From Niastella vici (GTDB lineage Bacteria > Bacteroidota > Bacteroidia > Chitinophagales > Chitinophagaceae): DNA of 64,000 nt. The number at the start of each line of letters is the position of its first letter. Position 1 is the first letter of the stretch. The notes under the pieces are model-generated. The model had not been told where the DNA came from and did not search any database. It saw nothing but the letters and a program-made list of their open reading frames with translations. Shown in pieces: positions 39,461-60,871 of this stretch. A program made the translations under genes and the position numbers. The stretch covers positions 62,001 through 126,000 of the forward strand of contig NZ_LVYD01000058.1 of assembly GCF_002077945.1 (NCBI RefSeq), given 5' to 3'.

Positions 39461-40600
39461 TTAAATTTCCGTAAATGTGGTAATGGTCATGGTTTGATTA
39501 TGCAGTAAGGGAAGGCTGCCGGTTTGTAAAGGCGATATTTCCCCATATGAATAAAAACCTGTGGTACAGGTGGCCGTTCCAAAAATTTCATTTACGGCAT
39601 GTACTTCTTCTTCGGTTCTGTCGCGCAAGATCAGTTTGCGGCCAATACAACTGATCAGTATCGCCAAATCGGGTTTGGCGATCGTTTCATTAACAGTATG
39701 CTGCGCTGCGCGGGACGATCCATCGATCAGTTTATTAAAACTGGCCTTCATCAAACGCACCTGGCTGCCTTCAGGCATATTTCCCGCAAACACCATGAAA
39801 CGTTCCTGTTCATTGATCGACAAAATGGTTCTAACCACTGCTTTATCGGCACCCGGTTCTTTAACCGCTAAAGGAAAAAGCATGGCCGAACCTGGCAATT
39901 CTTTTTTATAAGGTCCCAGGTAAGCCTGATAAAGTTCGAAGGCATTTTTGCCATCTATTTCGTGTAAGATATTTTTATCAGAGCGGGTAATGGTGCGGGG
40001 CGGCCCAAATTCATCCCAACCGCCAAATGACCCATGGCCTACCTGTAACTGCCGGCCATAAAAACCAATAGCTACAATGACCCCTTCGGCAGGCAATTGA
40101 TTTAATCCCACAAAAGTTTTTGTAAAGCGCGAACCATCGCCTGCCAGTCCGCCCGTAACGGGAACGCTGTTCGTATTGGTTGTATTAAAACCGGCAACCA
40201 GTTCACTGCCATTGATATTTGTGCCATCAGAAATGATAAAGGCGGCGCTGAGGTCGTTTTGTTGCAGCTGCTGCATCAGGTACTGACCGGCATCATAACT
40301 GTTTTGGTGGCGATTGATAGTGGTTTCGGCACAATGGATAGTGGTATTGTCAAATTGGATGGCGGTAACTACAACACTATTGTCAAAAACATCGGTATGA
40401 ATAATTTCGCCCGAAGTAGAAGAAAGAATAATGTGCGCTTCGGGATAGCTGCGTTCCAGGTAATTAAAAACAGCCGTGTCGGTGATCAGCGACGGTTCGC
40501 CAAATACCAGCACCAACTGGCATTGCATGCGGTCGAATTCGTCGGCGTGCACGTAAATTTTCCATGCCTTATCGTAGTACTGCAGTTGTTGAATTTTCAT
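39461..40600 (-). CDS. FIST-domain sensor protein (NosP-like)
   Basis: 379 residues covering the FIST N and C domains, with features such as LVFGEPSLI, IILSSTSGEI, VPVTGGLAGDG and ILISCIGRKLIL. FIST proteins bind small ligands; NosP members bind haem and sense nitric oxide. I cannot prove a haem ligand from the sequence alone. Its pairing with a sensorless hybrid kinase implies that this protein supplies the input to that kinase. Confidence 0.88.
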   Translation of the reverse strand: MKIQQLQYYDKAWKIYVHADEFDRMQCQLVLVFGEPSLITDTAVFNYLERSYPEAHIILSSTSGEIIHTDVFDNSVVVTAIQFDNTTIHCAETTINRHQNSYDAGQYLMQQLQQNDLSAAFIISDGTNINGSELVAGFNTTNTNSVPVTGGLAGDGSRFTKTFVGLNQLPAEGVIVAIGFYGRQLQVGHGSFGGWDEFGPPRTITRSDKNILHEIDGKNAFELYQAYLGPYKKELPGSAMLFPLAVKEPGADKAVVRTILSINEQERFMVFAGNMPEGSQVRLMKASFNKLIDGSSRAAQHTVNETIAKPDLAILISCIGRKLILRDRTEEEVHAVNEIFGTATCTTGFYSYGEISPLQTGSLPLLHNQTMTITTFTEI

Positions 40601-46220: not shown

Positions 46221-46645
46221 AGTACTTTTCTATTATTTGAGTGGGCAATTTAAGTTTTTGTCAAATACCAAATACCGTGCAATTTAAAAAAACAGTCATT
46301 TTGGCCTAATATCTTCATAAACAAGGTTTTTGGGCCTGCTAATGAGGCAGACGGACTGGCAGCCGGCGCCAGTTTTTACCCCTTCCGGCAGCCTAACAGG
46401 TACTGTTATGTAAAAAGGGAAGAACAGCAGAGCCGGACCCCCGCTGCGCCTTCGCGAAGGTTCGGCCAGGCAAGGCCGGTCAGCTTTGAAACCCAACCAG
46501 GTACACAGCTTAACCAAACAGTCATTAGTTTTATTCTGCATGAATAATAAGTGCTGAATCAACAATTGAAAACGGCAGTAGTTCAATACTGTCAAAAAGC
46601 AGCAAACGAACAATTGTTTGTAGGCTGGAATGTTAAATAAGATTT
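46221..46645. other. 425-base intergenic region with an 11-bp direct repeat
   Basis: No convincing gene. AAACAGTCATT occurs at 46290-46300 and 46516-46526, flanking about 215 bases that include ACTGGC...GCCAGTTTTT (near 46347) and GC-rich palindromic sequence at 46430-46490. A minus-strand open frame at 46296-46613 has protein-unlike composition. Confidence 0.4.
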
Positions 46646-46721
46646 AGTCCACTCGTTTGGTAGAAAAAATTTTTAAGATCCGTCTTTCTGTGTTATCTTT
46701 GATCTACAAATTGAGTAGACT
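46646..46721 (+). promoter_or_regulatory. Sulfur operon promoter with two operator-like palindromes
   Basis: A perfect -7 box TATCTTTG lies at 46693-46700. A palindrome-like site (TCTA...TAGA core, ending AGTAGACT) lies at 46701-46721, directly after the box and over the expected start site. A weaker copy (AGTCCA...GGTAGA) lies at 46646-46666, upstream of the expected -33. Both resemble AGTCTA-N9-TAGACT, which also occurs three times before the TonB receptor gene. A repressor or dual regulator of sulfur genes is the likely reader (inference). Confidence 0.65.
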
Positions 46722-46725
46722 TATT

Positions 46726-46794
46726 ATGTTTCGCTCCCACACAATACACATCATGTACATCTCCTGTTGCAATAAATATTGTTGTTGCTGTTAA
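46726..46794 (+). CDS. Cysteine-rich leader peptide of the sulfur operon
   Basis: An ATG at 46726, 25 bases after a perfect -7 box, opens a 22-codon frame that ends in the residues SCCNKYCCCC and TAA at 46792-46794. Six of the last nine codons are Cys (TGT or TGC). It precedes cysH by 79 bases. Leader peptides rich in the pathway's end product are a known way to couple charged-tRNA supply to expression; here cysteine-tRNA shortage would stall ribosomes on the Cys codons. A second short ATG frame (46801-46848) follows. Not proven to be translated. Confidence 0.8.
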   Translation: MFRSHTIHIMYISCCNKYCCCC

Positions 46795-46873
46795 TACTCA
46801 ATGATTACCCGCTTTTCAGCCGTCTTTGCTTCTCAGGTTCCAGATTAATGAATGAAATGAATGATAAACGTAT

Positions 46874-47590
46874 ATGAGCTCAACACTACAGTCAAACTTG
46901 TCAGATTTAACCCACCAATCAGATAGACTAAATATTCATGAATTTATAAAACTGGTTACGGAAAAATTCCCTGGCAAGGTTACTTTTTCAACCAGCTTCA
47001 GCTTTGAAGATCAGGTAATTGCCCACGAAATATTGAGCAATAAGCTGCCGGTGAACATATTTACTTTAGATACCGGAAGGTTATTTTCTGAAACATATTC
47101 TGTTTGGAACAATACCAACGAAAAATACCAGGCGAATATAGCAGCCTACTATCCCGATTACCGTTTGCTCGAAGAATTTGTCACCGAAAAAGGCCCGAAT
47201 GCATTTTATGAGTCGGTTGAGAACCGCAAGCAATGCTGCTTTATTCGTAAGGTAGAACCGCTAAAAAGGGCACTGGCCGGCAACGCCATCTGGATTACCG
47301 GTTTGCGCGCCGAACATTCGCCCGACCGTAAAGACCTCAGCGTAATAGAGTGGGACGAAACCAACCAGATCATCAAGTACAATCCCATTTTGCACTGGAC
47401 AACCGAGCAGGTACGGAAATACATCGACGAAAATAATGTACCATATAATATATTGCATGACCGCGGATTTGTGAGCATTGGCTGCCTTCCCTGTACCCGC
47501 GCTATTCGCCCCGGCGAAGATTTCAGAGCCGGCCGTTGGTGGTGGGAAGATGCAGCTAAAAAAGAATGTGGTTTGCATATACATAAATAA
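46874..47590 (+). CDS. cysH: Phosphoadenylyl/adenylyl-sulfate reductase CysH
   Basis: 238 residues. Reduces activated sulfate to sulfite with thioredoxin. The PP-loop-type region (TFSTSFSFEDQVI) and the motif pair CC (RKQCCFIRK) and CxxC (GCLPCTRAI) are present; the four cysteines are those that hold a [4Fe-4S] cluster, indicating adenylyl-sulfate (APS) as substrate rather than PAPS. No APS kinase gene is in the operon, consistent with this. First structural gene after the leader. Confidence 0.93.
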   Translation: MSSTLQSNLSDLTHQSDRLNIHEFIKLVTEKFPGKVTFSTSFSFEDQVIAHEILSNKLPVNIFTLDTGRLFSETYSVWNNTNEKYQANIAAYYPDYRLLEEFVTEKGPNAFYESVENRKQCCFIRKVEPLKRALAGNAIWITGLRAEHSPDRKDLSVIEWDETNQIIKYNPILHWTTEQVRKYIDENNVPYNILHDRGFVSIGCLPCTRAIRPGEDFRAGRWWWEDAAKKECGLHIHK

Positions 47591-47619: not shown

Positions 47620-48528
47620 ATGAGTAAGTATAGTTTAGATTATTTGGATCATCTGGAGTCGGAAGCTATTCATATCTTCCGCGAGGTAGCAGGACAATTT
47701 GAAAGACCGGCTTTATTATTTTCCGGTGGGAAAGATTCCATTACGCTGGTACAACTGGCGTTAAAGGCTTTCCGCCCCGGTAAATTCCCCTTCCCGCTGG
47801 TACACATCGATACCGGCCATAACTTCCCCGAAGCATTGCAATACCGTGATGAACTGGCCAAAAAAATTGGTGAGAAATTAATAGTACGTAACGTAGGCGA
47901 TACCATTAAAGCAAAGAACCTCACCGAACCCAAAGGAAAATTCGCCAGCCGCAACGCATTACAAACCTACACGCTGCTCGATACCATCGAGGAGTTCAAG
48001 TTTGATGCCTGCATTGGTGGTGCCCGCCGCGATGAAGAAAAAGCAAGAGCCAAAGAGCGCATCTTCTCTGTACGCGATGAGTTCGGTCAATGGGACCCCA
48101 AACTGCAACGCCCTGAGCTGTGGAATACCTATAATGGTAGAATAACCAAAGGGGAGAACGTTCGCGTATTCCCAATCAGTAACTGGACCGAGCTGGATGT
48201 ATGGAACTATATCCGCCGCGAAAAGATCGAACTGCCTTCCATATATTTTTCACACGAACGCGAGGTGATCGATCACGAAGGACAACTGGTAGCTGTAAGT
48301 GATTTTATAAAACTCGATGCTACCGACAAGGTGCTAAGGAAGAATGTACGTTATCGTACTGTAGGTGATATGACGTGTACTGCCGCAGTAGAATCGCATG
48401 CTTCGAACATCGACGACATCATCAGCGAGATCACTGCAACAAAAACCAGTGAACGCGGTGAAACCCGTATCGATGACAAGGTATCGGAAGCAGCTATGGA
48501 AGACAGAAAGAAGAACGGATATTTTTAA
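47620..48528 (+). CDS. cysD: Sulfate adenylyltransferase subunit 2
   Basis: 302 residues. ATP-sulfurylase catalytic subunit with the PP-loop motif LFSGGKDSITLVQLA and the conserved GARRDEEKARAKERIFSVRD. Forms a heterodimer with CysN to make adenylyl sulfate from sulfate and ATP. It follows cysH by 29 bases. The 82-base gap to cysN holds AT-rich sequence with a GGGATTT / AAATCCC complementary pair. Confidence 0.95.
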   Translation: MSKYSLDYLDHLESEAIHIFREVAGQFERPALLFSGGKDSITLVQLALKAFRPGKFPFPLVHIDTGHNFPEALQYRDELAKKIGEKLIVRNVGDTIKAKNLTEPKGKFASRNALQTYTLLDTIEEFKFDACIGGARRDEEKARAKERIFSVRDEFGQWDPKLQRPELWNTYNGRITKGENVRVFPISNWTELDVWNYIRREKIELPSIYFSHEREVIDHEGQLVAVSDFIKLDATDKVLRKNVRYRTVGDMTCTAAVESHASNIDDIISEITATKTSERGETRIDDKVSEAAMEDRKKNGYF

Positions 48529-48610
48529 TTTCTGATTTAGCGATTTTGGGATTTTTAGATCTGATCAAATCCCCGAAATCTCGAAATCCCCAAATCTCAA
48601 AATTCTTAAA

Positions 48611-49849
48611 ATGGATTTATTACGGTTTATAACAGCAGGTAGTGTAGATGATGGCAAGAGCACATTGATCGGCCGTTTATTATACGATAGCAAAAGTATA
48701 ATGATCGACCAACTGGAGGCTATTGAGAAACAAAGTAAAAACAAAGAGCAGGGAGAAATTGATCTGGCCTTGTTGACCGATGGTTTACGTGCAGAAAGAG
48801 AGCAGGGCATTACGATCGATGTGGCGTACAAATATTTCTCAACGCCCAAACGTAAGTTCATTATTGCCGATGCGCCCGGGCATATTCAATACACCCGTAA
48901 CATGGTGACCGGCGCTTCTACCGCCGACCTCGCCATTATATTAATTGATGCCCGTAATGGCGTGGTTGAACAAACCCGCCGCCATTCTATCATAACTTCT
49001 TTGCTGAACATTCCGCATGTGGTAGTGGCCATCAATAAAATGGACCTGGTCGATTACTCACAGGATGTTTACAATAATATTGTGATCGATTATGCCGAAG
49101 TGGCAAAATCGCTGGGACTGAAAGATGTAACCTACATCCCCATCAGCGCCGCGTTTGGCGATAACATCGTAGAAAAGTCGCCAAAGCTGAGCTGGTACGA
49201 AGGCTCATCTTTGCTGAACTTTCTTGAATCAGTGGAAGTAGAAAAAGATATTAACCTCGCCGATCCGCGTTTCCCTGTGCAATATGTGATCCGTCCGCAA
49301 ACAGACGATCTGCACGATTATCGTGGTTATGCCGGTAAGGTCATCAGCGGTATTTACAAGAAAGGAGATGCCGTTACCGTGCTTCCCTCAGGAAGAACAA
49401 GCACCATTAAAAATATTGAACATAACGGGGTAGATGTAGCCGAAGTGTTTGCACCACAAAGCGCTATCCTGCACCTGGAAGATGATATTGATATCAGCCG
49501 GGGTGATATTATCGTAAAAAACGATAACCTGCCCAGGGTTACCCAGGAGCTGGATGTGGTGTTGTGCTGGATGGATAACAAACCACTGGTAACCGGTAAC
49601 AAATATTTACTGCAGATCAACAGCCGCGTAGTAAAAAGTGTGATAAAAGAAATTGAGTACAAGCTGGATGTAAATACCCTGCAAAAGACCGATGCCACAT
49701 CAGCCGGTTTGAATGATGTAATAAAAGTGAAAATAAAAACAGCATCACCCATTCCGTACGATTCGTATAGCGAATTGCGCGAGAACGGCGGTGCCATCCT
49801 GATAGATGAAACAAGCCACGTAACAGTAGGCGCCTGTATGATTAAATAG
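48611..49849 (+). CDS. cysN: Sulfate adenylyltransferase subunit 1 (GTPase)
   Basis: 412 residues. EF-Tu-like GTPase: P-loop GSVDDGKSTLIGRLL, switch region EQGITIDVAYKYFST, DAPGH and NKMD motifs. Stimulates the CysD reaction. The protein ends after the EF-Tu-like beta domains, without the CysC APS-kinase fusion found in some bacteria; this agrees with a CysH that uses adenylyl sulfate directly. Confidence 0.95.
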   Translation: MDLLRFITAGSVDDGKSTLIGRLLYDSKSIMIDQLEAIEKQSKNKEQGEIDLALLTDGLRAEREQGITIDVAYKYFSTPKRKFIIADAPGHIQYTRNMVTGASTADLAIILIDARNGVVEQTRRHSIITSLLNIPHVVVAINKMDLVDYSQDVYNNIVIDYAEVAKSLGLKDVTYIPISAAFGDNIVEKSPKLSWYEGSSLLNFLESVEVEKDINLADPRFPVQYVIRPQTDDLHDYRGYAGKVISGIYKKGDAVTVLPSGRTSTIKNIEHNGVDVAEVFAPQSAILHLEDDIDISRGDIIVKNDNLPRVTQELDVVLCWMDNKPLVTGNKYLLQINSRVVKSVIKEIEYKLDVNTLQKTDATSAGLNDVIKVKIKTASPIPYDSYSELRENGGAILIDETSHVTVGACMIK

Positions 49850-49891
49850 CCGGGTAGTAAACAGCGTGTTGAACTTTGAATATTGAATAAC

Positions 49892-50719
49892 ATGAGTACG
49901 AGCGAATTTATACAGCATTTATATGCACAACATAAAAAGGTAGATACCTCATTTCCCGATAAGGAAATGGCGGAGCAGTTCATTGATCAGGTTTTTAATT
50001 TTTTGTTCTTACCCAACAAAAAACATCAGCAGGTCAGCGATCTGGAAAAAGAGCTCAACATCTTAAAGAGCTATTTATCGAGCCTGGCGTATGATGTGGT
50101 GCATACGGAAGACAAGGCCGAACTGATCACAGAAACATTTTTTGCGGTCATCCCCGACCTGTATGCAACGTTGATGAAGGATGCAAATGCGTTGTTGTTG
50201 TTTGACCCGGCCGCGCGGTCAGTAGAAGAAGTGATAGTGGCGTATCCCGGGTTTTATGCAACAGCAGTGTATCGCTTGTCGCACCAGTTATGGGAGCAGG
50301 GTGTTGGAATTTTGCCCAGGCTGTTCACCGAATATGCGCACAGCAAAACAGGAGTTGATATTCATCCCGGCGCCCGTATAGGCGATGCCTTTTGCATTGA
50401 CCATGGAACCGGAATCGTAATAGGCGAGACCACAGAAATTGGTAATAACGTAAAAATATATCAGGGTGTAACATTGGGCGCTTTGAACGTATCGAAAGAT
50501 AATGTAACAAAACGCCACCCGACCATTGAAGATAATGTGACCATTTACTCAGGCGCCACCATTTTAGGAGGCACAACGGTGATAGGAAAAGATAGCATCA
50601 TTGGCGGTAATGTTTGGCTAACGTACAGCGTACCCTCATTCTCGGTGGTATATCATAAAAGTGAAGTGAAAGTACGGGATAAAAATCCATTTCCCGAACC
50701 ATTAAACTTTGTCATCTAA
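49892..50719 (+). CDS. cysE: Serine O-acetyltransferase
   Basis: 275 residues. Acetylates serine to O-acetylserine for cysteine synthase. N-terminal helical part, then a left-handed beta-helix (GVDIHPGARIGDAFCIDHGTGI, EIGNNVKIYQGVTLGAL) with the His/Asp pair of the active site and a hydrophobic end (PLNFVI). The C-terminal Ile fits the insertion into cysteine synthase. ATG at 49892 selected over a TTG at 49883. Confidence 0.94.
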   Translation: MSTSEFIQHLYAQHKKVDTSFPDKEMAEQFIDQVFNFLFLPNKKHQQVSDLEKELNILKSYLSSLAYDVVHTEDKAELITETFFAVIPDLYATLMKDANALLLFDPAARSVEEVIVAYPGFYATAVYRLSHQLWEQGVGILPRLFTEYAHSKTGVDIHPGARIGDAFCIDHGTGIVIGETTEIGNNVKIYQGVTLGALNVSKDNVTKRHPTIEDNVTIYSGATILGGTTVIGKDSIIGGNVWLTYSVPSFSVVYHKSEVKVRDKNPFPEPLNFVI

Positions 50720-50734
50720 TAAAACTGATTTGTT

Positions 50735-51700
50735 ATGATCACAGAAAAAGCAAAAAATATTACAGATAACCAAAACAACCAGCGAATGAGAGCCGGTAAC
50801 ATTTTAGAAACGATTGGCCAAACCCCCCATGTTAAGATCAACAGGCTGTATGGCGAAGGACACGAAGTTTGGATAAAACTCGAACGTAACAATCCAGGCA
50901 ACAGCATTAAGGACCGTATTGCATTGTCGATGATCGAAGATGCAGAGAAGAAAGGTATCCTGAATAAAGACAGTGTGATCATTGAACCTACTTCGGGCAA
51001 CACCGGTATTGGTTTGGCCATGGTATCAGCAGTAAAAGGATACAAATTGATACTGGTAATGCCAGAATCAATGAGTGTGGAAAGAAGACAGTTGATGGAA
51101 CTGTATGGCGCTTCATTTGAATTAACACCCCGTGAAAAAGGGATGAAAGGCGCTATTGAAAAAGCAAAGGAACTGGTTGCCGCAACGCCCAATTCCTGGA
51201 TGCCCCAACAGTTCGATAATGCAGCCAACGTAAAAGTTCACCGCGAAACCACCGCACAGGAAATTCTGGAAAGCTTTCCTGACGGCATCGATTACCTGAT
51301 CACTGGTGTTGGTACCGGCGGACATATCACCGGTGTGGCAGAAGTGCTGAAAGAAAAATTCCCTAACCTGAAAGTATTTGCAGTAGAACCCGAGTTATCG
51401 GCTGTGATCAGCGGCGGTGCTCCCGGACCACATCCTTTGCAGGGATTGGGCGCTGGTTTCATTCCTTCTATCCTGAATACAAAATTGCTCGATGGAACGG
51501 TGCTGGTAGGAAAAGATGAAGCATTTGTATATGCACAACGCCTGGCCAAAGAAGAAGGAATACTGGCTGGTATTTCAACCGGTGCCGCCCTGGCAGCAGT
51601 AGCAAAGAAATTAGCCGAGATACCAAAAGGAGCTCGCGTATTAACATTCAACTACGATACCGGCGAACGGTATTTGTCAATAGAAGGCTTGTATAAATAG
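50735..51700 (+). CDS. cysK: Cysteine synthase
   Basis: 321 residues. Pyridoxal-phosphate enzyme making cysteine from O-acetylserine and sulfide. The lysine lies in [16 protein letters not shown], the substrate loop is [13 protein letters not shown], and the phosphate-binding loop is [10 protein letters not shown]. 15 bases after cysE. Either the CysK or CysM subtype; the residues do not settle it. Confidence 0.93.
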
Positions 51701-51712
51701 TAAAGTAAGTAC

Positions 51713-52576
51713 ATGCAAACAAACCAAACATCTGGTAAAGTGATACTTGCTGCTGCCGGTCCCGGTGATCCCGAACTGGTAACGGTAAAAACAGTACGCT
51801 ACCTGCAACAGGCTGATGTGGTGTTGGCCGACCGTTTGGTTAGTTCGGCCATCCTGCAGCAGTATGTGAACAGCAAGGCAGAGATCGTGTACGTAGGCAA
51901 GCAATGCAGCCGCGGTTCTTCTACTCCGCAGTATACCATTAATGAACTGATGGTACACTACGCATTACAGGGCAAACTGGTGGTGCGGTTAAAAGGGGGA
52001 GATGCCACTATGTTCTCGAACATACTCGATGAGCTGCAAAGCCTGGTGCAACACAATATACCCTATGAAATTGTACCGGGTGTAACGGCGGCGTTGGGAG
52101 CAGCAGCCTATGCAGGCATTCCTTTAACGGCACGGGGGTATACAACTTCCGTTCGGTTCCTGACCAGCTATAAACTGGATGTTCTTACCCCAACATACTG
52201 GAAAGAGCTGGCACAAACCAACGATACCCTTGTATTTTATATGTCGTCTGAAACATTGGACCATGTAGTGGATAGCCTGGTGCAGCATAATATCAGCAGC
52301 GATAAGTTGCTGGCAGTGATTGAACAGGCAACAACGCCCCTGCAAAATGTACATGTAACCAATATATATGAATATGACCAACAGTTGCGGGGAAAAACAT
52401 TTGTTTCTCCTTCGCTGGTGATCATAGGAAAAGTGGTGGCTTTGCACGAACGGTTCAAATGGATTGCGAACAGCGAAAGTGCCGAGCATTATTTTAAACC
52501 ACTGGCAAAACTGATTACAACGACACCCGATTCTGAAAATGCGGAAAAAGTAAATAAATATGTTAGCAGAGCATAA
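51713..52576 (+). CDS. cobA: Uroporphyrinogen-III C-methyltransferase
   Basis: 287 residues. SAM-dependent methylation of uroporphyrinogen III to precorrin-2, the first step to sirohaem for sulfite reductase. Motifs VILAAAGPGDPELVTVKTV, VRLKGGDATMF and GVTAALGAAAYAGIPLTARG are present. It ends inside the cysJ start (17-base overlap), implying coupled translation. Length is normal for a stand-alone SUMT, so the later CysG functions sit elsewhere in the operon. Confidence 0.94.
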   Translation: MQTNQTSGKVILAAAGPGDPELVTVKTVRYLQQADVVLADRLVSSAILQQYVNSKAEIVYVGKQCSRGSSTPQYTINELMVHYALQGKLVVRLKGGDATMFSNILDELQSLVQHNIPYEIVPGVTAALGAAAYAGIPLTARGYTTSVRFLTSYKLDVLTPTYWKELAQTNDTLVFYMSSETLDHVVDSLVQHNISSDKLLAVIEQATTPLQNVHVTNIYEYDQQLRGKTFVSPSLVIIGKVVALHERFKWIANSESAEHYFKPLAKLITTTPDSENAEKVNKYVSRA

Positions 52577-54308
52577 ACTGAAATTGTTACAGGATTTAGT
52601 AAGGTCTTCAACCAAAGAAGAACTGGTTTGGATAAATGGATTCCTGGCCGGCGTGTTAATGAATTGCCACGATCAGCCTGCACTGGCTTCTACTGCAGCA
52701 CCTGCAACAGCAGCTGCACCCGTGGCTGCCCCTGTTGAAAGCAAACCAACCGTATCTAAAATAACTATAGCATACGGTACTGAAACCGGTAACTCAAAAA
52801 AGCTGGCTACCGACTTGGCCGCTAAAGCAAAGAAAAGTGGTATCCAGGCCAAAGTGGTAAGCCTTGATCAATATCGCCTGAATGATCTGGCGAAAGAAGA
52901 ATATTTCTTCACCATCATCAGCACACAAGGCGAAGGCGAACCACCTGCTACTGCAAAGAAATTTTACGACCACATCCATCAGAATGGTTTCAAGTTGCCT
53001 CAAATAAAATTTGGCGTATTGGCGCTCGGCGATACATCATACCCCCTGTTTTGCAAAGCTGGTGAAGATGTAGATCAGCAATTGCAAAAACTGGGCGGAC
53101 AACGCGTTGTTAACTTAATAAAATGTGATACCGATTACCAGGGGGATGCAGATGGCTGGTTCTCGCAGGTATTGCATTCATTAACCACCACTACCAGCAG
53201 CAATGGTACAGCCAGCGTAGGCGCGGTAGTAACGGCTAAAAAGCCAACCGGCAAAAAAGTTTACAATGGTAGCATCATCACCAACGTAAACCTGAACGAC
53301 AGAGGTTCTCAAAAAGCAACTCATCATATTGAAATAGTGGCCGATGAACTGGAATACCAACCCGGTGATTCAATCGGTATTGTTCCTGAAAACGCACCCG
53401 CTATTGTAGATTCTATTATCGCAGTGACCCGTATCGACAGCAAAAAGACAGTATCGTTTCGTAATGAATCTCATACCGTGCTTGAATTATTGAAAAAGAA
53501 ACTGAACATCGCTTATTTGCCGGAAAGGGTGGTAAAGCAGTATGCATCTATTGTTAAACAGGATATTCCTGAAACAAAGATCAGTTTGCTCGATCTGTTG
53601 AAAATATACCCGGTGAACAATGCGGCCCAGTTTGAAGAAGTGATCGGCATTCTGGAACCCATAACGCCGAGATTGTACTCTATTTCTTCTTCACCCAATG
53701 CACACAGCGGTGAAGTACATATTACTGTAGCCCGCGACAATTTTAAAGTGAACGGCGAAGTAAAACATGGTTTGGCTTCAAACTTCCTGGCTGAACTGCC
53801 AGTTGATGGTTCGCTGGAATTTTATGTACATAAAAATAACCAGTTCCGGTTACCTGCTGAAGACAAAGACGTTATTATGATCGGGCCCGGAACCGGTATT
53901 GCGCCTTTCAGGTCTTTCATTGCTGAGCGCGATGCTGCCGGCGCCAGTGGTCGTAACTGGCTGTTCTTTGGCGACCAGCACTTCACTACCGACTTTTTAT
54001 ATCAAACAGAAATTCAAAACTGGATCCAGACAGGCGTACTCACCAAAGTGAACGTGGCCTTCTCAAGAGACCAGAAATCAAAAATATACGTACAACATAA
54101 AATGCTGGAGAATGCCAAAGCATTTTATGAGTGGTTGCAGAACGGAGCCTATGTATACATCTGCGGCGCTAAAGAACCAATGAGTGTAGATGTGGAATAT
54201 ACCATTCTGCAGATCATTGAAAGATTTGGAAGTAAATCAAGCGCCCAGGCGGTGGAGTATTTGAGCCAATTGAAAGAAGAAGGCCGCTTCCTGAAAGATG
54301 TGTATTAG
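52560..54308 (+). CDS. cysJ: Sulfite reductase flavoprotein CysJ
   Basis: 582 residues. An N-terminal 65-residue Ala/Pro-rich region precedes a flavodoxin domain (IAYGTETGNSKKLATDL), then FAD- and NADPH-binding domains (RLYSISSSP, MIGPGTGIAPFRSF, YICGAKEPM). Passes electrons from NADPH to CysI. The start ATG overlaps the end of cobA. Confidence 0.94.
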   Translation: MLAEHKLKLLQDLVRSSTKEELVWINGFLAGVLMNCHDQPALASTAAPATAAAPVAAPVESKPTVSKITIAYGTETGNSKKLATDLAAKAKKSGIQAKVVSLDQYRLNDLAKEEYFFTIISTQGEGEPPATAKKFYDHIHQNGFKLPQIKFGVLALGDTSYPLFCKAGEDVDQQLQKLGGQRVVNLIKCDTDYQGDADGWFSQVLHSLTTTTSSNGTASVGAVVTAKKPTGKKVYNGSIITNVNLNDRGSQKATHHIEIVADELEYQPGDSIGIVPENAPAIVDSIIAVTRIDSKKTVSFRNESHTVLELLKKKLNIAYLPERVVKQYASIVKQDIPETKISLLDLLKIYPVNNAAQFEEVIGILEPITPRLYSISSSPNAHSGEVHITVARDNFKVNGEVKHGLASNFLAELPVDGSLEFYVHKNNQFRLPAEDKDVIMIGPGTGIAPFRSFIAERDAAGASGRNWLFFGDQHFTTDFLYQTEIQNWIQTGVLTKVNVAFSRDQKSKIYVQHKMLENAKAFYEWLQNGAYVYICGAKEPMSVDVEYTILQIIERFGSKSSAQAVEYLSQLKEEGRFLKDVY

Positions 54309-54354
54309 AACGAAGCGGATGAATTTAATTTGAAACTTGAAACAGCATTTAACG

Positions 54355-56043
54355 ATGAGTACAAACGATAATAAGAATCTGTCTTCTACCGAAAAAATAA
54401 AAATGGCCAGCGATGGCTTGCGCGGTACATTAAAAGAAAGCCTGCGCGATGAAATAACCGGTGCGATCCGTGAAGATGACACAGCGTTGGTTAAGTTCCA
54501 TGGCATGTATCAGCAGGATGATCGTGACCGCCGCGAAGAGCGCAGTGCCAAAAAGCTGGAATGGCTGTATTCTTATATGCTGCGTTTGCGGCTGCCCGGT
54601 GGCTTTATGACCGCTGATCAATACATAGGCTTACATAACATAGCCGGTGAACATTCAACCGGAGTTATTAAGATCACCACCCGCCAAACCATACAGCTGC
54701 ATGGTATTTTAAAATCGCATGTAAAACCAACCATTAAGGCTTTCAACACCATACTCATTGATTCTATTTCAGCCTGTGGTGATGTAAACCGTAATGTGGC
54801 TTGCGCATCACACCCCAAGTTCTCGCCAATACATGAGGAAATATTCTCTTACGCGGGAAAAATAAGCCAATTGGGTTTACCAAAAACAAAAGCATATTAC
54901 GAAATATGGCTCGATGAAAAGCCATTGCTCGATAAAAAGGAAAAAGAGGAAGTAGAGAAAGATCCTTTATACCAGGATCGCTATTTGCCCCGGAAGTTCA
55001 AAATTGGTATAGCCATTCCGCCAAACAACGACGTGGATGTATTTACCAATGACCTTGGTTTGATTGCCATTATTGAAAATGGCAATCTGATAGGGTTTAA
55101 TATTGCTGCCGGTGGCGGTTTGGGCACTACTCATGGTAACGCAGCCACGTACCCGCGCCTGGCATCTATGCTGGGTTTTGTACGTGGCGAAGAACAAACA
55201 CTGAAAGCGGTACTGGAAGTAATTACTATTCAGCGCGACCATGGCAACCGAAGCGATCGTAAACTGAGCCGCCTTAAATACACCATCGACAAAATGGGTG
55301 TGGAAGCTTTCAAAGCAGAACTGGAAAAACGTTGTGGTTTCAAACTCGAAGAGTCAAAACCATATACCTTTACTAGCAGAAAGGACGAATACGGCTGGCA
55401 CAAAAACCACGAAGGGAAATGGTATTATACCGTATTTATTGAAAATGGCCGTATAGCCGATGAAAAAGTTGCTTTAAAAACAGCTTTGCTCGAAGTGGCA
55501 AAAACCGGTAAAACCAATTTCAGGTTCACCAGTAACCAGGGTTTGATCATCAGCGACATTGCCCAAAAGGATAAGAAAGCTGTAGAAAAGATATTGACCG
55601 ATTTCGGAATTATTGCACATACAGACAATGCAGGGGCTGTACGTAAAAATGCCATCGCCTGCGTAGCGTTCAATACCTGTTCGCTGGCGTTGGCCGAAGC
55701 ACAACGCTACTTGCCATCGCTCATCACGAAAATTGAGCCTATCCTGGCTAAGTATGGCCTGGAGAACGACGAAATTTCTATGCGCATGACCGGTTGTCCC
55801 AATGGTTGCGGAAGGCCCTATGCAGCAGAGATCGGTTTTATAGGCACTGCCTATGGCCGTTATAATTTGCATTTAGGTGGCGACCGCGAAGGTTTCCGTT
55901 TGAATAAAAAGTACAAAGAAAATATTGACGAGCCCGCCATTTTGAAAGAGCTGGATGAACTATTTGAGAAATATAGCAAGAACAGGCAAAAAGGCGAAAC
56001 TTTTGGCGATTTTGCAGTTCGGGAAAAGTTGGTAACGATTTAA
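54355..56043 (+). CDS. cysI: Sulfite reductase haemoprotein CysI
   Basis: 562 residues. Reduces sulfite to sulfide using sirohaem and a [4Fe-4S] cluster. The cluster ligands lie in CVAFNTCSLALAEA and TGCPNGCGRP near the C-terminus; the nitrite/sulfite reductase ferredoxin-like half-domains (GGFMTADQYIGLHNIA, GIVIK-type) are present. Expected in a complex with CysJ. The ATG at 54355 is chosen; an upstream TTG at 54337 is in frame. Confidence 0.94.
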   Translation: MSTNDNKNLSSTEKIKMASDGLRGTLKESLRDEITGAIREDDTALVKFHGMYQQDDRDRREERSAKKLEWLYSYMLRLRLPGGFMTADQYIGLHNIAGEHSTGVIKITTRQTIQLHGILKSHVKPTIKAFNTILIDSISACGDVNRNVACASHPKFSPIHEEIFSYAGKISQLGLPKTKAYYEIWLDEKPLLDKKEKEEVEKDPLYQDRYLPRKFKIGIAIPPNNDVDVFTNDLGLIAIIENGNLIGFNIAAGGGLGTTHGNAATYPRLASMLGFVRGEEQTLKAVLEVITIQRDHGNRSDRKLSRLKYTIDKMGVEAFKAELEKRCGFKLEESKPYTFTSRKDEYGWHKNHEGKWYYTVFIENGRIADEKVALKTALLEVAKTGKTNFRFTSNQGLIISDIAQKDKKAVEKILTDFGIIAHTDNAGAVRKNAIACVAFNTCSLALAEAQRYLPSLITKIEPILAKYGLENDEISMRMTGCPNGCGRPYAAEIGFIGTAYGRYNLHLGGDREGFRLNKKYKENIDEPAILKELDELFEKYSKNRQKGETFGDFAVREKLVTI

Positions 56044-56046
56044 AAA

Positions 56047-57576
56047 ATGCTGGGAAGCATGACAACAGAACAAACAATACCGGTAAAACAAACGACTGGC
56101 GCAACAACCGACCAGGGCAATCTTTTATTTCCTGTTTTTTTAAAGCTGGAAGAATTAAAAGTATTGCTGGTAGGAGGGGGCAAGGTAGGTGCAGAAAAGC
56201 TTTCTGCACTGCTGGGTAATTCGCCGGCTGCCCCGGTTACTGTTGTTGCTCGTAGCATTTCTGAAGAAGTACGCAAGCTGGCAAAGCATCACCCCAATGT
56301 TACCCTTCATGAACGCGCCTTCATGGAAAGCGACCTGGAGAATAAAGACCTGGTAGTGATCGCGGTAAATGAAAAGGAATCGAGCCTGGCTATCAGGGCG
56401 GCTGCCAAGGAAAAAAAGATCCTGGTAAACGTGGCCGATACCCCTGAGCAATGTGATTTTTATTTGAGCTCCATTGTGCAGAAAGGCAATCTGAAGATCG
56501 CCATTTCAACCAACGGTAAATCACCAACAGCGGCAAAACGCATCAAGGAAGTATTGAACTATGCATTACCGGCCGAGCTCGATGACATGATCAATAACCT
56601 GCACGCGGTACGCAATAAGCTGAACGGGAACTTTGAATACAAGGTAAAACGGCTGAACGAGCTCACCCGCATACTTATTGAAAAGGATAATGTAGAACGG
56701 GAACGACGGGTGCGCAAAATTGTTACGTACTCGCTGATCGCGTTCGGACTGATGCTCATTGGCCACTTCCTCTTTTCTTATTTACCCTTTCAGCGCATAG
56801 CCGATGATACAGTAAAATGGTATCAGCAGCTTGACCCAAACTTTCACTGGATGTTGCTGGCCGGTTTCCTGGCGCAATTGGTTGATGGCGCTTTGGGAAT
56901 GGGTTATGGCGTAACCAGCGCTACTATTTTATTAACAGCCGGCGTGCCCCCTGCCGCCATGAGTGGCAGTATTCACACGGCTGAAATGTTCGCCAGTGGC
57001 GCCTCGGGTTACAGCCACTATAAGTTTGGCAACGTAAATAAAAAGTTATTCAAGGCATTGGTGATTCCCGGGGTTTTGGGAGCTGTATTCGGTGCCATTC
57101 TGTTAGTAAAATTTGGTGATTCACAAACAGCCTATATAAAACCCGTTATTGCCACCTATACCATGTTGCTGGGTATACGCATACTATGGAATGCCTTTAA
57201 AAAGGAGCAGAAGAAAAAGAAATTCAAACATTATGGCTGGCTGGCTGGTTTTGGCGGCTTCCTCGATTCGTTCGGCGGTGGGGGTTGGGGTCCCATTGTA
57301 ACCACTACGTTAATTACCAAGGGCCGTAGCCCGCGGTTTGTAATAGGTTCTGTAAGCCTGACCGAATTTTTTGTTACCCTGGCAAGCGCCTTTACATTCT
57401 TCATTTCCCTGGGTGTAACCCACTGGCAGGTGATCGTGGCACTAATAATCGGCGGTTTGCTGGCTGCTCCTGTAGCGGCAAAACTAGCTGGTAAATTACC
57501 CCGTAAAACCTCCATGATCTTATTAGGTTTTCTGGTAATATTCTGGAGCCTGAAGATCATTGTAAAGATCTTTTAA
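56047..57576 (+). CDS. Sirohaem synthase domain fused to TSUP/TauE-SafE transporter
   Basis: 509 residues. Residues 30-215 match the N-terminal part of CysG/Met8: Rossmann loop LLVGGGKVGAEKLSALL, NVADTPEQCDFY with the catalytic Asp131, and ISTNGKSPTAAKRI. This makes sirohydrochlorin and may insert iron. From about residue 230 on the protein is a membrane transporter with roughly eight segments and the TauE/SafE (TSUP) signature DGALGMGYGVTSA. The frame is continuous with a clean start, so the fusion is real. It may export or import sulfite or sulfate. Last gene of the cys cluster, just after cysI. Confidence 0.88.
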   Translation: MLGSMTTEQTIPVKQTTGATTDQGNLLFPVFLKLEELKVLLVGGGKVGAEKLSALLGNSPAAPVTVVARSISEEVRKLAKHHPNVTLHERAFMESDLENKDLVVIAVNEKESSLAIRAAAKEKKILVNVADTPEQCDFYLSSIVQKGNLKIAISTNGKSPTAAKRIKEVLNYALPAELDDMINNLHAVRNKLNGNFEYKVKRLNELTRILIEKDNVERERRVRKIVTYSLIAFGLMLIGHFLFSYLPFQRIADDTVKWYQQLDPNFHWMLLAGFLAQLVDGALGMGYGVTSATILLTAGVPPAAMSGSIHTAEMFASGASGYSHYKFGNVNKKLFKALVIPGVLGAVFGAILLVKFGDSQTAYIKPVIATYTMLLGIRILWNAFKKEQKKKKFKHYGWLAGFGGFLDSFGGGGWGPIVTTTLITKGRSPRFVIGSVSLTEFFVTLASAFTFFISLGVTHWQVIVALIIGGLLAAPVAAKLAGKLPRKTSMILLGFLVIFWSLKIIVKIF

Positions 57577-57585
57577 TAGCATACT

Positions 57586-57817
57586 CCTGGTATAAATTGT
57601 ACCGGGATTTAAAATAAATTATAAGTCTAGTAAAATAATGGACTATATTTGCGCATTATCATCCCGGTTTCTATAGTTACCGGGTTTTTTAAAGCCTGTT
57701 TAGTCTAGTGTAATTGTAGACATATAGGAATGAATGATCCCCCGGTTTTGATTATTTGAATAAGCGACCGGGTTTTTATATAAATTTTTAGTCTATTAAA
57801 TTAATAGGCTTTTATTC
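57586..57817 (+). promoter_or_regulatory. Triplicate hairpin-operator leader before TonB receptor
   Basis: Hairpins of CCCGGT/ACCGGG type lie at 57586-57606 (weaker, CCTGGTA/TACCGGG), 57663-57684 (then six T) and 57741-57772 (then five T). Each is followed by an AGTCTA palindrome at 57624-57644, 57702-57722 and 57790-57810. The first palindrome ends at a perfect -7 box, TATATTTG (57644-57651); the later copies have decayed boxes. The modules repeat at about 77-88 bases. The same palindrome marks the cys operon promoter. Likely a tandemly duplicated promoter region with transcription stops between copies. Confidence 0.7.
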
Positions 57818-57832
57818 GCAAAATCAACGAAC

Positions 57833-60800
57833 ATGAAAACAGCAAATCCTTCAGGCTGGATGCTATTAACCAAAACCTTTTACATAGGACTCTTTGAGAA
57901 ATTAAATGGGGCTCAAAAACTGAAATACGGCGTTCTGTCGTCTCTCGTTCTGCTCATGTGCTCCGCTTCCTTTGCGCAAACAGTGGCCCTTATTGAAATA
58001 TCTGGACAGGTGGTGAATCAGGAAAAGAATGAACCCCTGGGCGATGTAAGTGTACAGATCAAAGGTTCAGTAACAGGAACCATAACCGACAATACCGGTA
58101 ATTTTATTATTCGCACAAAGCAAAAATTACCTTTTACCCTGGTGTTTTCTTCTGTAGGGTTTAAGCCGCAGGAACTGGAAGTAAAAAGCCTTGGTTCCAA
58201 ATTACAGGTAGCCATGGTAACGCAAACGGTGTTGGGGAATGAAGTGGTAGTAACCGCTTCCCGTGTTCCGGAAAATATCCTTAAATCGCCGGTAGCTATT
58301 CAAAAGCTCGATATCCGTGCGATCAAGGAAACACCTGCGCCTAACTTTTACGATGCTCTCGAAAACGTAAAAGGTGTGCAAATGACCACTTCCAGCTTAA
58401 CCTTCAAAGTGCCTAATACGCGTGGTTTCAACATCCCTAACAATTTCCGGTTTATGCAGCTGGTAGATGGGGTTGATATGCAGGCTGCCACCCTGGGTGT
58501 GCCGCTGGGTAATGCCATTGGCCCCACCGAGCTGGATATTCAAAGCGTTGAAATTACGCCCGGCGCGGCTTCGGCTTTGTATGGCATGAATGCGATCAAC
58601 GGTATGGCCAACCTGCTTACCAAAAATCCATTCAACAGTCAGGGCTTGAGCATTTATCATAAAACAGGATTGAACCATGTTGACGGTATAGACCATACAC
58701 CCGCATTTTTGACCGAATCTGCAATACGGTATGCGAAAGCATTATTCCATAACAAGTTTGCTTTTAAAGTGAACGTGGGTTATATGCAGGGGATCGACTG
58801 GCGTTCGAATTCCCGCCTCGATCAAAACCCGAATAACCTCAAAAGCGCTAACCCTAATTTCCCTTCTTTGGATGGTGCAAACAATATTGCATTTGACGGC
58901 TGGAATAAATATGGAGACGATGCGCTGGCCGGAAGTAATACTTCTTCTATCAGCGGCCTCACTATTGATGGTAAAACCAACCAAACCTTGCGCGTAGTGC
59001 GCACTGGTTATTGGGAAACTGATCTGGTAAGTCCGAAAGTGAGCAACCTGAAAGTAGATGCGGCCGTTCATTATCGCTTAACGGAGAATACCGAGTTATC
59101 CTATTCATACCGCTTTGGTAAAATGGACGGCGTGTTTCAACGCGGTAACAAGATCAGGCTCGATGGCGTTAAAGTGCAGAACCATCACCTGGAGTTGAAA
59201 GGTAAGGATTATGTGATCCGTAGTTATGTATCAATTGAAAATACTGGTAACTCGTATAATGTAAAACCGTTGGCCGATAACCTTGACCTGGCCAGTGGTG
59301 GATCGAGCACAGCCTGGGCCGCCAAATACAAAAATGCGCTTACTGAATATGCCAGCAATAATGGCGGATTAACATCAGCTAACCTGGCAGCGGCTAACGT
59401 GTATGCCCGGGCAAAAGCAGATGCCGGCCGTGTTGAGCCCGGCACCCCTGAATTTGATGCATTAAAGAATACCATCATTAAAATTAACAACTGGGATATA
59501 AAATCGAGCGCTATCCCTGATGCACCCGCGACCGGTGGTGCGGCCCTGATACAAAAAAGCCGCCTGTACCATACCGAAGCACAATGGGACCTGTCGAAAT
59601 ATACGAAAGTGGTTGACCTGCTGGTAGGTGGTGATGCCCGTATTTACGAAGTAATTCCCGACGGTAATAATTTTGTTGATTTCAGCCGTCCCATTGATGA
59701 AAGGAACAAGCCGGTAATGGTTGATGGCAAGGTGCCTGATAGCAGTAATTTTGGCAGCAATGTGTATTACAAAAAATTTGGCGCCTTTGCGCAGGTTACC
59801 AAAACCTTTTTCGATGATAAGCTGAAATTGTTTGGTTCATTGCGGTACGATTACAATCCCGAGTTTGATCCCAAATTCACGCCCCGCCTGGCAGCAGTGT
59901 ATACCTTTAATCAACGTCATAATTTCCGCTTTACTTATCAGCAGGGATATCGTTTCCCGGCTTTGTTTGAAGCCTTATCGTATGTAAATAATGGCCGCGT
60001 AAAACGCGTGGGCAGCCTGTCGTACATCAACGATGGATTGGGATACCTGGAGAACAGTTATACACAGGCTTCAGTAGTAAACTTCAATGCAGCCGTAGCA
60101 GCAGCAGGTAATTCCGATGCGGCTGCGCTGGCTAATCGCGATCTGCTGGTTTGGGCGAACCTGCCTAAAGCGCGTCCTGAGCAGATCACTTCTTTTGAGA
60201 TCGGTTATAAAAGTGTGCTGCTGAATAATACATTGATCATTGATTTGGATGCTTATACCAACAAATACGATGGATTTTTGGGACAGGTGCAGGTATTTGT
60301 ACCCAAGGGTGAAACTGTGGGCAGCGATGCAGCGGTAATTGCCATGCTCGACCGCAATCGCGATGCTACCACTGCCAGTGGCGGCAATGCAGCCAGCAAA
60401 GGGCAGGACCGCTATCGTGTATACACCAATGCAAAGAATGCCTATTACAACTATGGTTCGGCGTTGGGCGTAACCTGGAATTTCTTTAAGAAATATACGG
60501 CATCGGGTAATTTGAATTTCAATCAAATGAAGGCAAACCATACCGATGATATCTTTGTAACAGGGTTCAATACTCCTAAATGGTCAACTAACCTGTCGTT
60601 CGGAAATCGTGAAATATTTAAGAACGTAGGCTTTAATGTTGTATGGAGATGGCAGGATTCGTTCCTGTGGGAAAGCCCGCTGGTGACCGGAAATATTTCT
60701 GCCTATAGCACCGTTGATGCACAGGTTACCTATCGTGTTCCTAAGGTTAATGCCAGCATAAAAGCCGGCGGCGCCAATTTGCTGAATCACCGTTATATTC

Positions 60801-60871
60801 AATATGCAGGCGGACCAACTATTGGCGGCTTGTATTATGTAGCATTTACAATTGACGGATTACTAAAATAA
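57833..60871 (+). CDS. TonB-dependent receptor of the sulfur regulon
   Basis: 1012 residues, outer membrane. A signal peptide (YGVLSSLVLLMCSASFAQ near residue 45) is preceded by a long N-terminal extension; then a carboxypeptidase-D-regulatory-like domain (ISGQVVNQEKNEPLGDVSV), a plug domain (VVVTASRVPENILKSPVAIQKLD, PNTRGFNIPNNFRFMQLVDGVD) and a beta-barrel ending in YVAFTIDGLLK. No SusD partner follows. Its promoter shares palindromes with the cys operon, so it probably takes up a sulfur compound or a cofactor needed for sulfur assimilation (inference); the ligand is unknown. Confidence 0.9.
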   Translation: MKTANPSGWMLLTKTFYIGLFEKLNGAQKLKYGVLSSLVLLMCSASFAQTVALIEISGQVVNQEKNEPLGDVSVQIKGSVTGTITDNTGNFIIRTKQKLPFTLVFSSVGFKPQELEVKSLGSKLQVAMVTQTVLGNEVVVTASRVPENILKSPVAIQKLDIRAIKETPAPNFYDALENVKGVQMTTSSLTFKVPNTRGFNIPNNFRFMQLVDGVDMQAATLGVPLGNAIGPTELDIQSVEITPGAASALYGMNAINGMANLLTKNPFNSQGLSIYHKTGLNHVDGIDHTPAFLTESAIRYAKALFHNKFAFKVNVGYMQGIDWRSNSRLDQNPNNLKSANPNFPSLDGANNIAFDGWNKYGDDALAGSNTSSISGLTIDGKTNQTLRVVRTGYWETDLVSPKVSNLKVDAAVHYRLTENTELSYSYRFGKMDGVFQRGNKIRLDGVKVQNHHLELKGKDYVIRSYVSIENTGNSYNVKPLADNLDLASGGSSTAWAAKYKNALTEYASNNGGLTSANLAAANVYARAKADAGRVEPGTPEFDALKNTIIKINNWDIKSSAIPDAPATGGAALIQKSRLYHTEAQWDLSKYTKVVDLLVGGDARIYEVIPDGNNFVDFSRPIDERNKPVMVDGKVPDSSNFGSNVYYKKFGAFAQVTKTFFDDKLKLFGSLRYDYNPEFDPKFTPRLAAVYTFNQRHNFRFTYQQGYRFPALFEALSYVNNGRVKRVGSLSYINDGLGYLENSYTQASVVNFNAAVAAAGNSDAAALANRDLLVWANLPKARPEQITSFEIGYKSVLLNNTLIIDLDAYTNKYDGFLGQVQVFVPKGETVGSDAAVIAMLDRNRDATTASGGNAASKGQDRYRVYTNAKNAYYNYGSALGVTWNFFKKYTASGNLNFNQMKANHTDDIFVTGFNTPKWSTNLSFGNREIFKNVGFNVVWRWQDSFLWESPLVTGNISAYSTVDAQVTYRVPKVNASIKAGGANLLNHRYIQYAGGPTIGGLYYVAFTIDGLLK

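Follow-up and report, generated by a model that had tools for sequence, protein, structure and literature searches.

The sulfate-assimilation operon of Niastella vici is preceded by a short leader open reading frame (ORF) that ends in a run of cysteine codons, an observation that is real and lies far beyond chance expectation. Because leaders of the same Cys-end design, otherwise unrelated in sequence, stand before cysteine-related genes in many related bacteria, the ribosome itself probably measures cysteine at these operons. From the comparisons presented here, we hold with high confidence that the leaders sense cysteine through their Cys codons; and, given the conservation of the leader, its recurrence before cysS and a sulfatase operon, and the conserved operator motif, a cysteine-sensing leader combined with an operator layer is very likely.

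The window analyzed here is a 64,000-nucleotide stretch of contig NZ_LVYD01000058.1. The leader (MFRSHTIHIMYISCCNKYCCCC; positions 46726-46794, forward strand) comprises 22 codons, from the ATG at 46726 to the TAA at 46792-46794, and the cysH start codon follows 79 nt after its stop. The Cys-codon cluster, the presumed stall site (46765-46791, forward strand), has Cys in six of nine codons (14, 15 and 19-22 of the leader), and the peptide thus ends in CCCC. The initial annotation had described exactly this arrangement, a 22-codon ORF with six Cys among its last nine codons and a CCCC end, followed by cysH, and every element of it is found in the sequence. It had also reported a perfect -7 box at 46693-46700; the box is present (TATCTTTG, matching TAnnTTTG, which we take to be the -7 box consensus of Bacteroidota), although the sequence reading places it at 46694-46701 on the forward strand. 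The leader ATG lies 24 nt past the box, and the positions of box and ATG predict a 5'UTR of about 20 nt. The first gene of the operon, cysH (phosphoadenylyl-/adenylylsulfate reductase; 46874-47590, forward strand), matches Pfam PF01507 and scores above the NCBIfam cut-offs for NF002537, TIGR02055 and TIGR00434. The remainder of this sulfate-assimilation and cysteine operon (47620-57576, forward strand), delineated from ORFs, Pfam and NCBIfam, encodes, in this order, cysD, cysN, serine acetyltransferase (its cysE-type NCBIfam match is below the cut-off), cysK, a sirohaem-type methylase, a CysJ-like flavoprotein, a sulfite-reductase-like protein (54337-56043, forward strand; labeled by reading), and a sirohaem synthase/TauE fusion. 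A further Cys-rich short ORF, MIKAALRSFCCSCCIRY, is located elsewhere in the window, at 40233-40286.

Within the genus, represented by 10 genomes including our own, nine genomes carry cysH (the tenth has a completeness of 61%). Loss of the ORF or of its Cys cluster in close relatives, which according to the initial annotation would speak against leader control, was looked for; instead, the leader is retained in all nine cysH-bearing genomes (our own included), with its stop 72-88 nt ahead of cysH and with Cys ends that include TCNKYCCCC, CCNKYCCC and CCNKYCCCN. The comparison of upstream regions for Cys codons with synonymous substitutions, also proposed there, revealed a bias toward synonymous change. 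Across codons 1-21, the variants found in the genus comprise 10 synonymous codon types and 9 amino-acid types. Synonymous types therefore make up 53% (10 of 19), compared to 16% of the full set of single changes to the consensus, and 12 of the codon-position changes fall on the third position, compared to 6 and 3 on the others. Long invariant blocks of the genus alignment extend across both operators (see below), the -7 box, which is unchanged in all nine aligned genomes, and the leader, and the spacer between leader and cysH is variable. By comparison, the leader is shown to behave as a selected coding sequence, with Cys as its selected content.

At the family level, 233 of the 394 genomes have a cysH match. 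From the approximately 150 places among the matches listed, 100 cysH upstream regions were picked, one to several per genus, so that the sample leans toward CysH proteins nearer to that of the window. An ATG-initiated ORF with at least four Cys among its last 12 codons, inside 400 nt upstream of cysH, was detected in 54 of these 100 regions, from 28 of the 44 genera (one of the 54, the weak hit at locus L153, falls within an upstream gene's region and is likely to be spurious). In the same 100 regions, the reverse complement yielded none, the reversed sequence one and the complement none, and 20 dinucleotide shuffles gave a mean of 0.20 and a maximum of one. When at least five Cys were required, 39 of the 100 regions passed, compared to none in every control. 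No other amino acid tested in the same way was as enriched, the next being Leu, with 12 regions versus 7 on the other strand. Outside the Cys run, the peptides are unrelated between genera, as in MLHTIAMQYNNSRYYYNCCCCC, MVSISLHMRCCCCCSCC and MIMLFTPHIINGCCCCNTCCNC, and the Cys runs are kept. The other 46 family loci have no ORF with at least four Cys inside 400 nt; among them, some ORFs carry two or three terminal Cys, and in some loci cysH closely follows another gene.

Pooling the family, the genus and near relatives resulted in an extended set of 66 leaders in 117 loci from 30 genera. These leaders have a median of 21 codons (11-36) and a median spacer of 64 nt (36-216), and the last Cys directly abuts the stop in 46 of the 66 and is at most one codon away in 59. 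We considered two readings in which cysteine sensing plays no part. One is that the ORF is due to chance or that a (TGY)n repeat is kept as a DNA or RNA motif rather than as codons; the low complexity of such runs is compatible with this, as is an unfiltered scan of our own genome for CCC followed by a stop, which gave 105 matches versus 32 for the reversed pattern. However, TGY triplets in the last 12 codons of the 66 leaders are distributed 361:32:4 over the three frames, and both TGT and TGC occur at each of the last six positions, which indicates that the codon, not the repeat, is kept; furthermore, the interrupting codons vary, and the shuffles yield 0.2 ORFs against the 54 observed. The repeat as a nucleic-acid motif was rejected on the frame bias and the mixed use of TGT and TGC, and we regard this whole reading as extremely improbable. 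The other possibility is that the Cys-rich peptide itself is functional, for example, in metal binding or in redox sensing by the nascent chain. Cys runs could indeed bind metal. Copper sensing by a nascent exported protein has been reported, as far as the accessible part of the source goes (PMC9973294). Against such a function, the peptides vary from 11 to 36 amino acids with unrelated N-termini, no conserved spacing or partner residues were seen, and the targets are cysteine and sulfur genes, including that for cysteinyl-tRNA synthetase, all of which makes it highly unlikely.

Outside this sample, we surveyed 80 named cysH loci, one of which (L199) has no upstream sequence. A leader was identified in 8 of the 80, seven of these being Chitinophagales or an unassigned Bacteroidetes, among them Chitinophagaceae bacterium DXS and Sediminibacterium sp. 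Gen4; at least two of the eight (L157 and L168) are genomes that are also in the family set. Outside Chitinophagales, cysH of Rufibacter ruber is preceded by the leader MVYPSHIERMRFCCCSPCCCCC. The named cysH loci of Flavobacterium, Chryseobacterium, Pedobacter, Mucilaginibacter and Sphingobacterium have no leader inside 700 nt of cysH. A pattern scan of 294 family genomes matched in 25, and among its 26 loci intergenic leaders were found only at the three of the genus. Such leaders will escape homology searches, since the peptides have little in common apart from their Cys runs.

The same device was detected before other genes, which supports its role in cysteine sensing. Leaders precede cysS in 15 of 50 family genomes (30 best-scoring loci and 20 more picked from the matches listed), for example, MARYSIYTCCCCCC and MRFYHLYCCCC, compared to 0.05 in shuffles and 1 in the reverse complement; the cysS gene of our own genome has no leader. 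Our own genome does contain a second operon with the leader device besides that of cysH: on contig C43 (locus L300, 72000-82000), a 23.7-bit operator is followed by the leader MRPSKISEPYRALAVAGVVLHYANSSYRSFCCCC and then by genes for SusC, SusD and a sulfatase (PF00884). This leader has 34 codons, a Cys run and a 193-nt spacer. A close SusC match is present in four of the 10 genus genomes (our own included), the fourth being a partial match, and both other full-length matches (91 and 57% identical) are preceded by an operator and a leader, the peptides ending in ...NSSYRSFCCCCC and ...LLKECCCCC. The sulfatase leader was found through its operator. Among the 105 CCC-stop matches in our own genome, 30 were examined as loci and had no leader; the sulfatase leader is among the other 75, and more leaders may exist in this genome.

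When 296 genomes of the class were scanned for five Cys codons followed by a stop, 118 had a match. Among 50 places examined, an intergenic Cys-run ORF was found in eight, all from the 20 loci that had been chosen for a TAA stop, blind to the downstream gene, and none from the other 30. Two of the eight (L344 and L346) come from one genus. These leaders precede four PAPS reductases, two cysteinyl-tRNA synthetases, one MetX-like protein and one other protein, that at L334 described below. The leader before the MetX-like gene (L337, 1382-1483), from another family of the class, ends in six Cys and lies 42 nt before the gene, the product of which scores below the NCBIfam cut-offs.

The TCTA...TAGA palindromes that the initial annotation had noted around the promoter turned out to be two copies of one conserved 23-bp operator motif. 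Its consensus is TAGTCYACnAAWTTnGTRGACTA, an odd-width palindrome; an even-width motif mixed two registers and was discarded in favor of the odd 23-mer. Bit scores refer to a model trained on one locus per genus from 50 genera. The upstream copy in the window (TAGTCCACTCGTTTGGTAGAAAA; 46645-46667, no strand assigned) scores 22.8 bits, and the second copy (TGATCTACAAATTGAGTAGACTT; 46700-46722, no strand assigned), which overlaps the predicted transcription start, scores 14.7 bits. The operator often adjoins the -7 box: of the 45 operator loci across the family with TAnnTTT inside 20 nt, 33 have this motif beginning 5 nt ahead of the operator. In two-way cross-validation, in which each half of the genera served once for training and once for testing, 87 of the 117 loci and 38 of the 50 genera scored above the shuffled 99% level. 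At a threshold of 12 bits, the operator is present at 53 of the 66 loci with a leader and at 32 of the 51 without. The motif search on shuffled sequence gave 24.5 lax 'sites' versus 35.1. In a scan of our own genome, exact matches include both window sites and the sulfatase operon, the upstream window site being an exact match of GTCYAC-N7-GTRGA; the one-mismatch pattern yielded 80 + 76 matches (156) versus 260 + 266 (526) for the reversed control, and, because it is rarer than this control, isolated weak operator matches should be ignored. A 20.7-bit operator-like match at 46908-46930, inside the start of cysH, could be a chance occurrence or an intragenic site.

Three more operator copies, starting at 57623, 57701 and 57789 (together 57623-57811, no strand assigned; 16.4, 13.3 and 21.9 bits), precede the gene for a TonB-dependent receptor (57833-60871) located directly after the cys operon. 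This gene has no Cys leader, and the substrate of the receptor may be a sulfur compound. Conversely, the operator was sought in the 300 nt before cysS and found at none of the 15 leader-bearing loci. Given cysS leaders without operators and the receptor gene with operators and without a leader, we treat operator and leader as separate layers. Gene neighborhood suggests that the operator is probably bound by a regulator of the Rrf2 family. In three other genera (L019, L145 and L156), the first gene upstream of cysH encodes an Rrf2 protein, and the Rrf2 homolog of our own genome is 62, 47 and 68% identical to the respective proteins, whereas a second Rrf2 protein of our own genome aligns to that of L156 at only 22%. 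The homolog, encoded on contig C49 at 94719-95120, matches Rrf2 (PF02082), scores above the cut-off of TIGR00738, and adjoins an adenosylhomocysteinase-like gene (labeled by reading). This arrangement resembles CymR and IscR in that an Rrf2-family protein is paired with a palindromic operator at cysteine genes. It differs in that the assignment of the operator comes from gene neighborhood and the regulator is below both model cut-offs (61.3 bits versus a cut-off of 195 for the CymR equivalog model; IscR also below cut-off).

How the leader would control the downstream gene was addressed through the folding and composition of the spacer. In classical transcription attenuation, a terminator and an antiterminator hairpin would alternate. 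It would fit a leader peptide whose regulatory codons precede an amino-acid operon; yet intrinsic-terminator-like hairpins were found in only 2 of the 66 spacers, on which terminator-based attenuation was rejected, and an Rfam scan of the window gave zero matches at gathering scores, leaving this alternative most unlikely. In translational attenuation, the mRNA would fold over the cysH start when cysteine is available, and a ribosome stalled on the Cys run would open the fold. The leader design is the same as in the actinobacterial case, judging from the available part of PMC1262725, and mycobacterial cysteine genes are described, in a citing passage, as being under translation attenuation. 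In silico, blocking the Cys run raised the openness of the cysH start region slightly, from 0.499 to 0.541, and full leader transcripts have a mean z of -0.53, with z < -1.5 at 16 of the 66 loci, none of them in the genus; because of these 16 loci, structure may play a part at some of them. On the other side, openness of the start region is 0.499 for the native leader and 0.497 for a shuffled one (native lower in 30 of the 66), dinucleotide shuffles of the spacer together with the cysH start fold more strongly than the native sequence (mean z of the native sequence +0.76; z < -1.5 in 4 of the 66), and all nine genus leaders have positive z for both the spacer with the cysH start and the full transcript. 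The cysH regions without a leader are about equally weakly structured. Sequestration of the start site was rejected, openness being unchanged by the shuffled leader, even with the 16 folded full transcripts in mind, and we consider translational attenuation unlikely.

A signature of Rho loading is C-rich, G-poor, weakly folded RNA, and Rho is encoded in our own genome (TIGR00767, 624 bits, above the cut-off). Over the 66 spacers, C accounts for 0.235 and G for 0.124, with C exceeding G in 63 of the 66, compared to 28 of the 66 in the promoter control. On average, this C>G bubble starts at the leader stop codon: in the first 20 nt past the stop, C is 0.28-0.31, and G does not exceed 0.17 over some 120 nt. 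An excess of C over G is also common ahead of genes in general, at 24 of 31 window genes and 50 of 90 others, but the mean C-G difference per nt is 0.119 in leader spacers versus 0.026-0.052 there. In an independent set, the spacers of cysS leaders, C exceeds G in 14 of 14 with a mean of 0.108 (L351, with a spacer of 283 nt, is within the 15 leaders and outside these 14), compared to 25 of 35 and a mean of 0.044 for leaderless cysS. The sulfatase spacers lack the bubble (C:G of 41:43, 38:42 and 56:44), two of the eight class-scan spacers are balanced (16:18 and 21:20), and the window spacer (46795-46873, forward strand), which has no terminator hairpin, is a weak candidate Rho loading region, with 16 C and 13 G among its 79 nt. 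Beginning at the leader stop, most spacers at cysH and cysS are rich in C and poor in G, which suggests Rho-dependent termination as the downstream step; we propose it tentatively, in view of the sulfatase spacers and the weak spacer of the window.

In the mechanism that we favor, ribosome-read cysteine sensing, RNA polymerase would start just upstream of the 22-codon leader, under the control of an operator to which a regulator of the Rrf2 family probably binds. When Cys-tRNA is plentiful, the ribosome would pass the Cys run, terminate and leave, and the operon would then be switched off in or just past the spacer; the agent would most likely be Rho, acting on RNA that is left exposed, rich in C and poor in G. 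Under a shortage of Cys-tRNA, ribosomes would come to a halt within the Cys run, up against the stop, and cover the start of the spacer, and the operon would remain on. Because a stall early in the run would bare most of the spacer, partial shielding, ribosome queues or coupling to cysH initiation would be needed. Here we infer the stalling, the off switch and the identity of the regulator. The idea of the initial annotation that a Cys-codon leader provides a second control layer gains support, on comparative grounds, from its presence in all nine genus genomes with cysH, in 28 of the 44 genera, before cysS and before the sulfatase operon. A fuller picture, somewhat more speculative than the Rho step by itself, is that of a multi-operon, ribosome-read cysteine regulon in Bacteroidota that might encompass sulfate assimilation, cysteinyl-tRNA synthetase, the MetX-like protein and organosulfate scavenging, with a Rho site that is exposed or shielded from the leader stop onward without an RNA fold (at cysH and cysS) and an Rrf2 layer at the sulfur operons, not at cysS.

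Mycobacterial polycysteine ORFs open a hidden ribosome-binding site, and the transcript begins at the start codon of the ORF. The leaders described here are similar to the mycobacterial and actinobacterial type in having a Cys run up to the stop, in their position before cys genes, in their occurrence at several operons per genome and in the lack of a terminator, and by design they would work like the mycobacterial system. They differ in belonging to another phylum with no shared sequence seen, in the short predicted 5'UTR and the Rrf2-type operator, in the excess of C over G in most spacers before cysH and cysS, with no sign of start-site sequestration, and in their additional presence before cysS and the SusCD/sulfatase operon. 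As our folding analysis did not detect sequestration, and as sequence offers no kinship that could be assessed, we do not assign them to the mycobacterial type. A different parallel is E. coli tnaC, where the ribosome arrests at the leader end beside a Rho-loading region at the stop codon; arrest (here presumed) at the leader end next to a (here candidate) Rho-loading region is common to both, but tnaC senses free tryptophan through a specific nascent chain, whereas the presumed signal here is hungry Cys codons.

In Actinobacteria, leaders that precede cys operons, carry Cys codons right up to the stop and have no obvious terminator have been predicted in PMC1262725, the accessible part of which suggests Rho and polyY motifs and itself calls the prediction rather weak. 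Polycysteine short ORFs of mycobacteria have been described, according to the part of the report available, as cysteine-responsive attenuators (Canestrari et al. 2020). In Rhodobacterales, uORFC-8-2 upstream of cysS has, in the portion of PMC8632094 at hand, two tandem Cys codons, a conserved RNA fold and an intrinsic terminator; it is similar to our leaders as a Cys-codon leader before cysteinyl-tRNA synthetase, and differs from them in that here the Cys runs are long and no terminator was found. The initial annotation was right in stating that other phyla are known to control cysteine genes through leaders: besides mycobacteria, it has been proposed for cysS of Rhodobacterales (PMC8632094, as above). 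For Bacteroidota, it knew of no such description, and our literature search, in which subscription journals were thinly covered, likewise retrieved none for cysteine leader peptides; PMC9723704, in the part available, reports clues to leader-peptide attenuation before amino-acid operons of Flavobacterium psychrophilum, without naming the operons, and its supplement possibly mentions such peptides. Thus, the principle of ribosome-based cysteine sensing is known from Actinobacteria and Rhodobacterales, and its occurrence in Bacteroidota is new as judged by this search, extending such sensing to a phylum for which no description was found. The findings would also tie cysteine sensing to the scavenging of organosulfates by SusC/SusD and sulfatase genes, and, with spacers that are C-rich and free of terminators, Rho-based leader control would become open to direct testing in Bacteroidota.

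Altogether, Cys-run leaders were seen in five families of the class. At L334 (1497-1619), a Cys-run leader with a 27.9-bit operator is located before the gene for a small carboxypeptidase-regulatory-domain protein, and its neighbor on the other side is a cysteine-desulfurase-like gene (labeled by reading). In Mucilaginibacter RYN_311 (L204, 6167-6265), a leader ending in seven Cys precedes a Porin_O_P gene directly after cysHDN, with an operator-like palindrome recognized by eye and a 62-nt spacer that contains 14 C and a single G.
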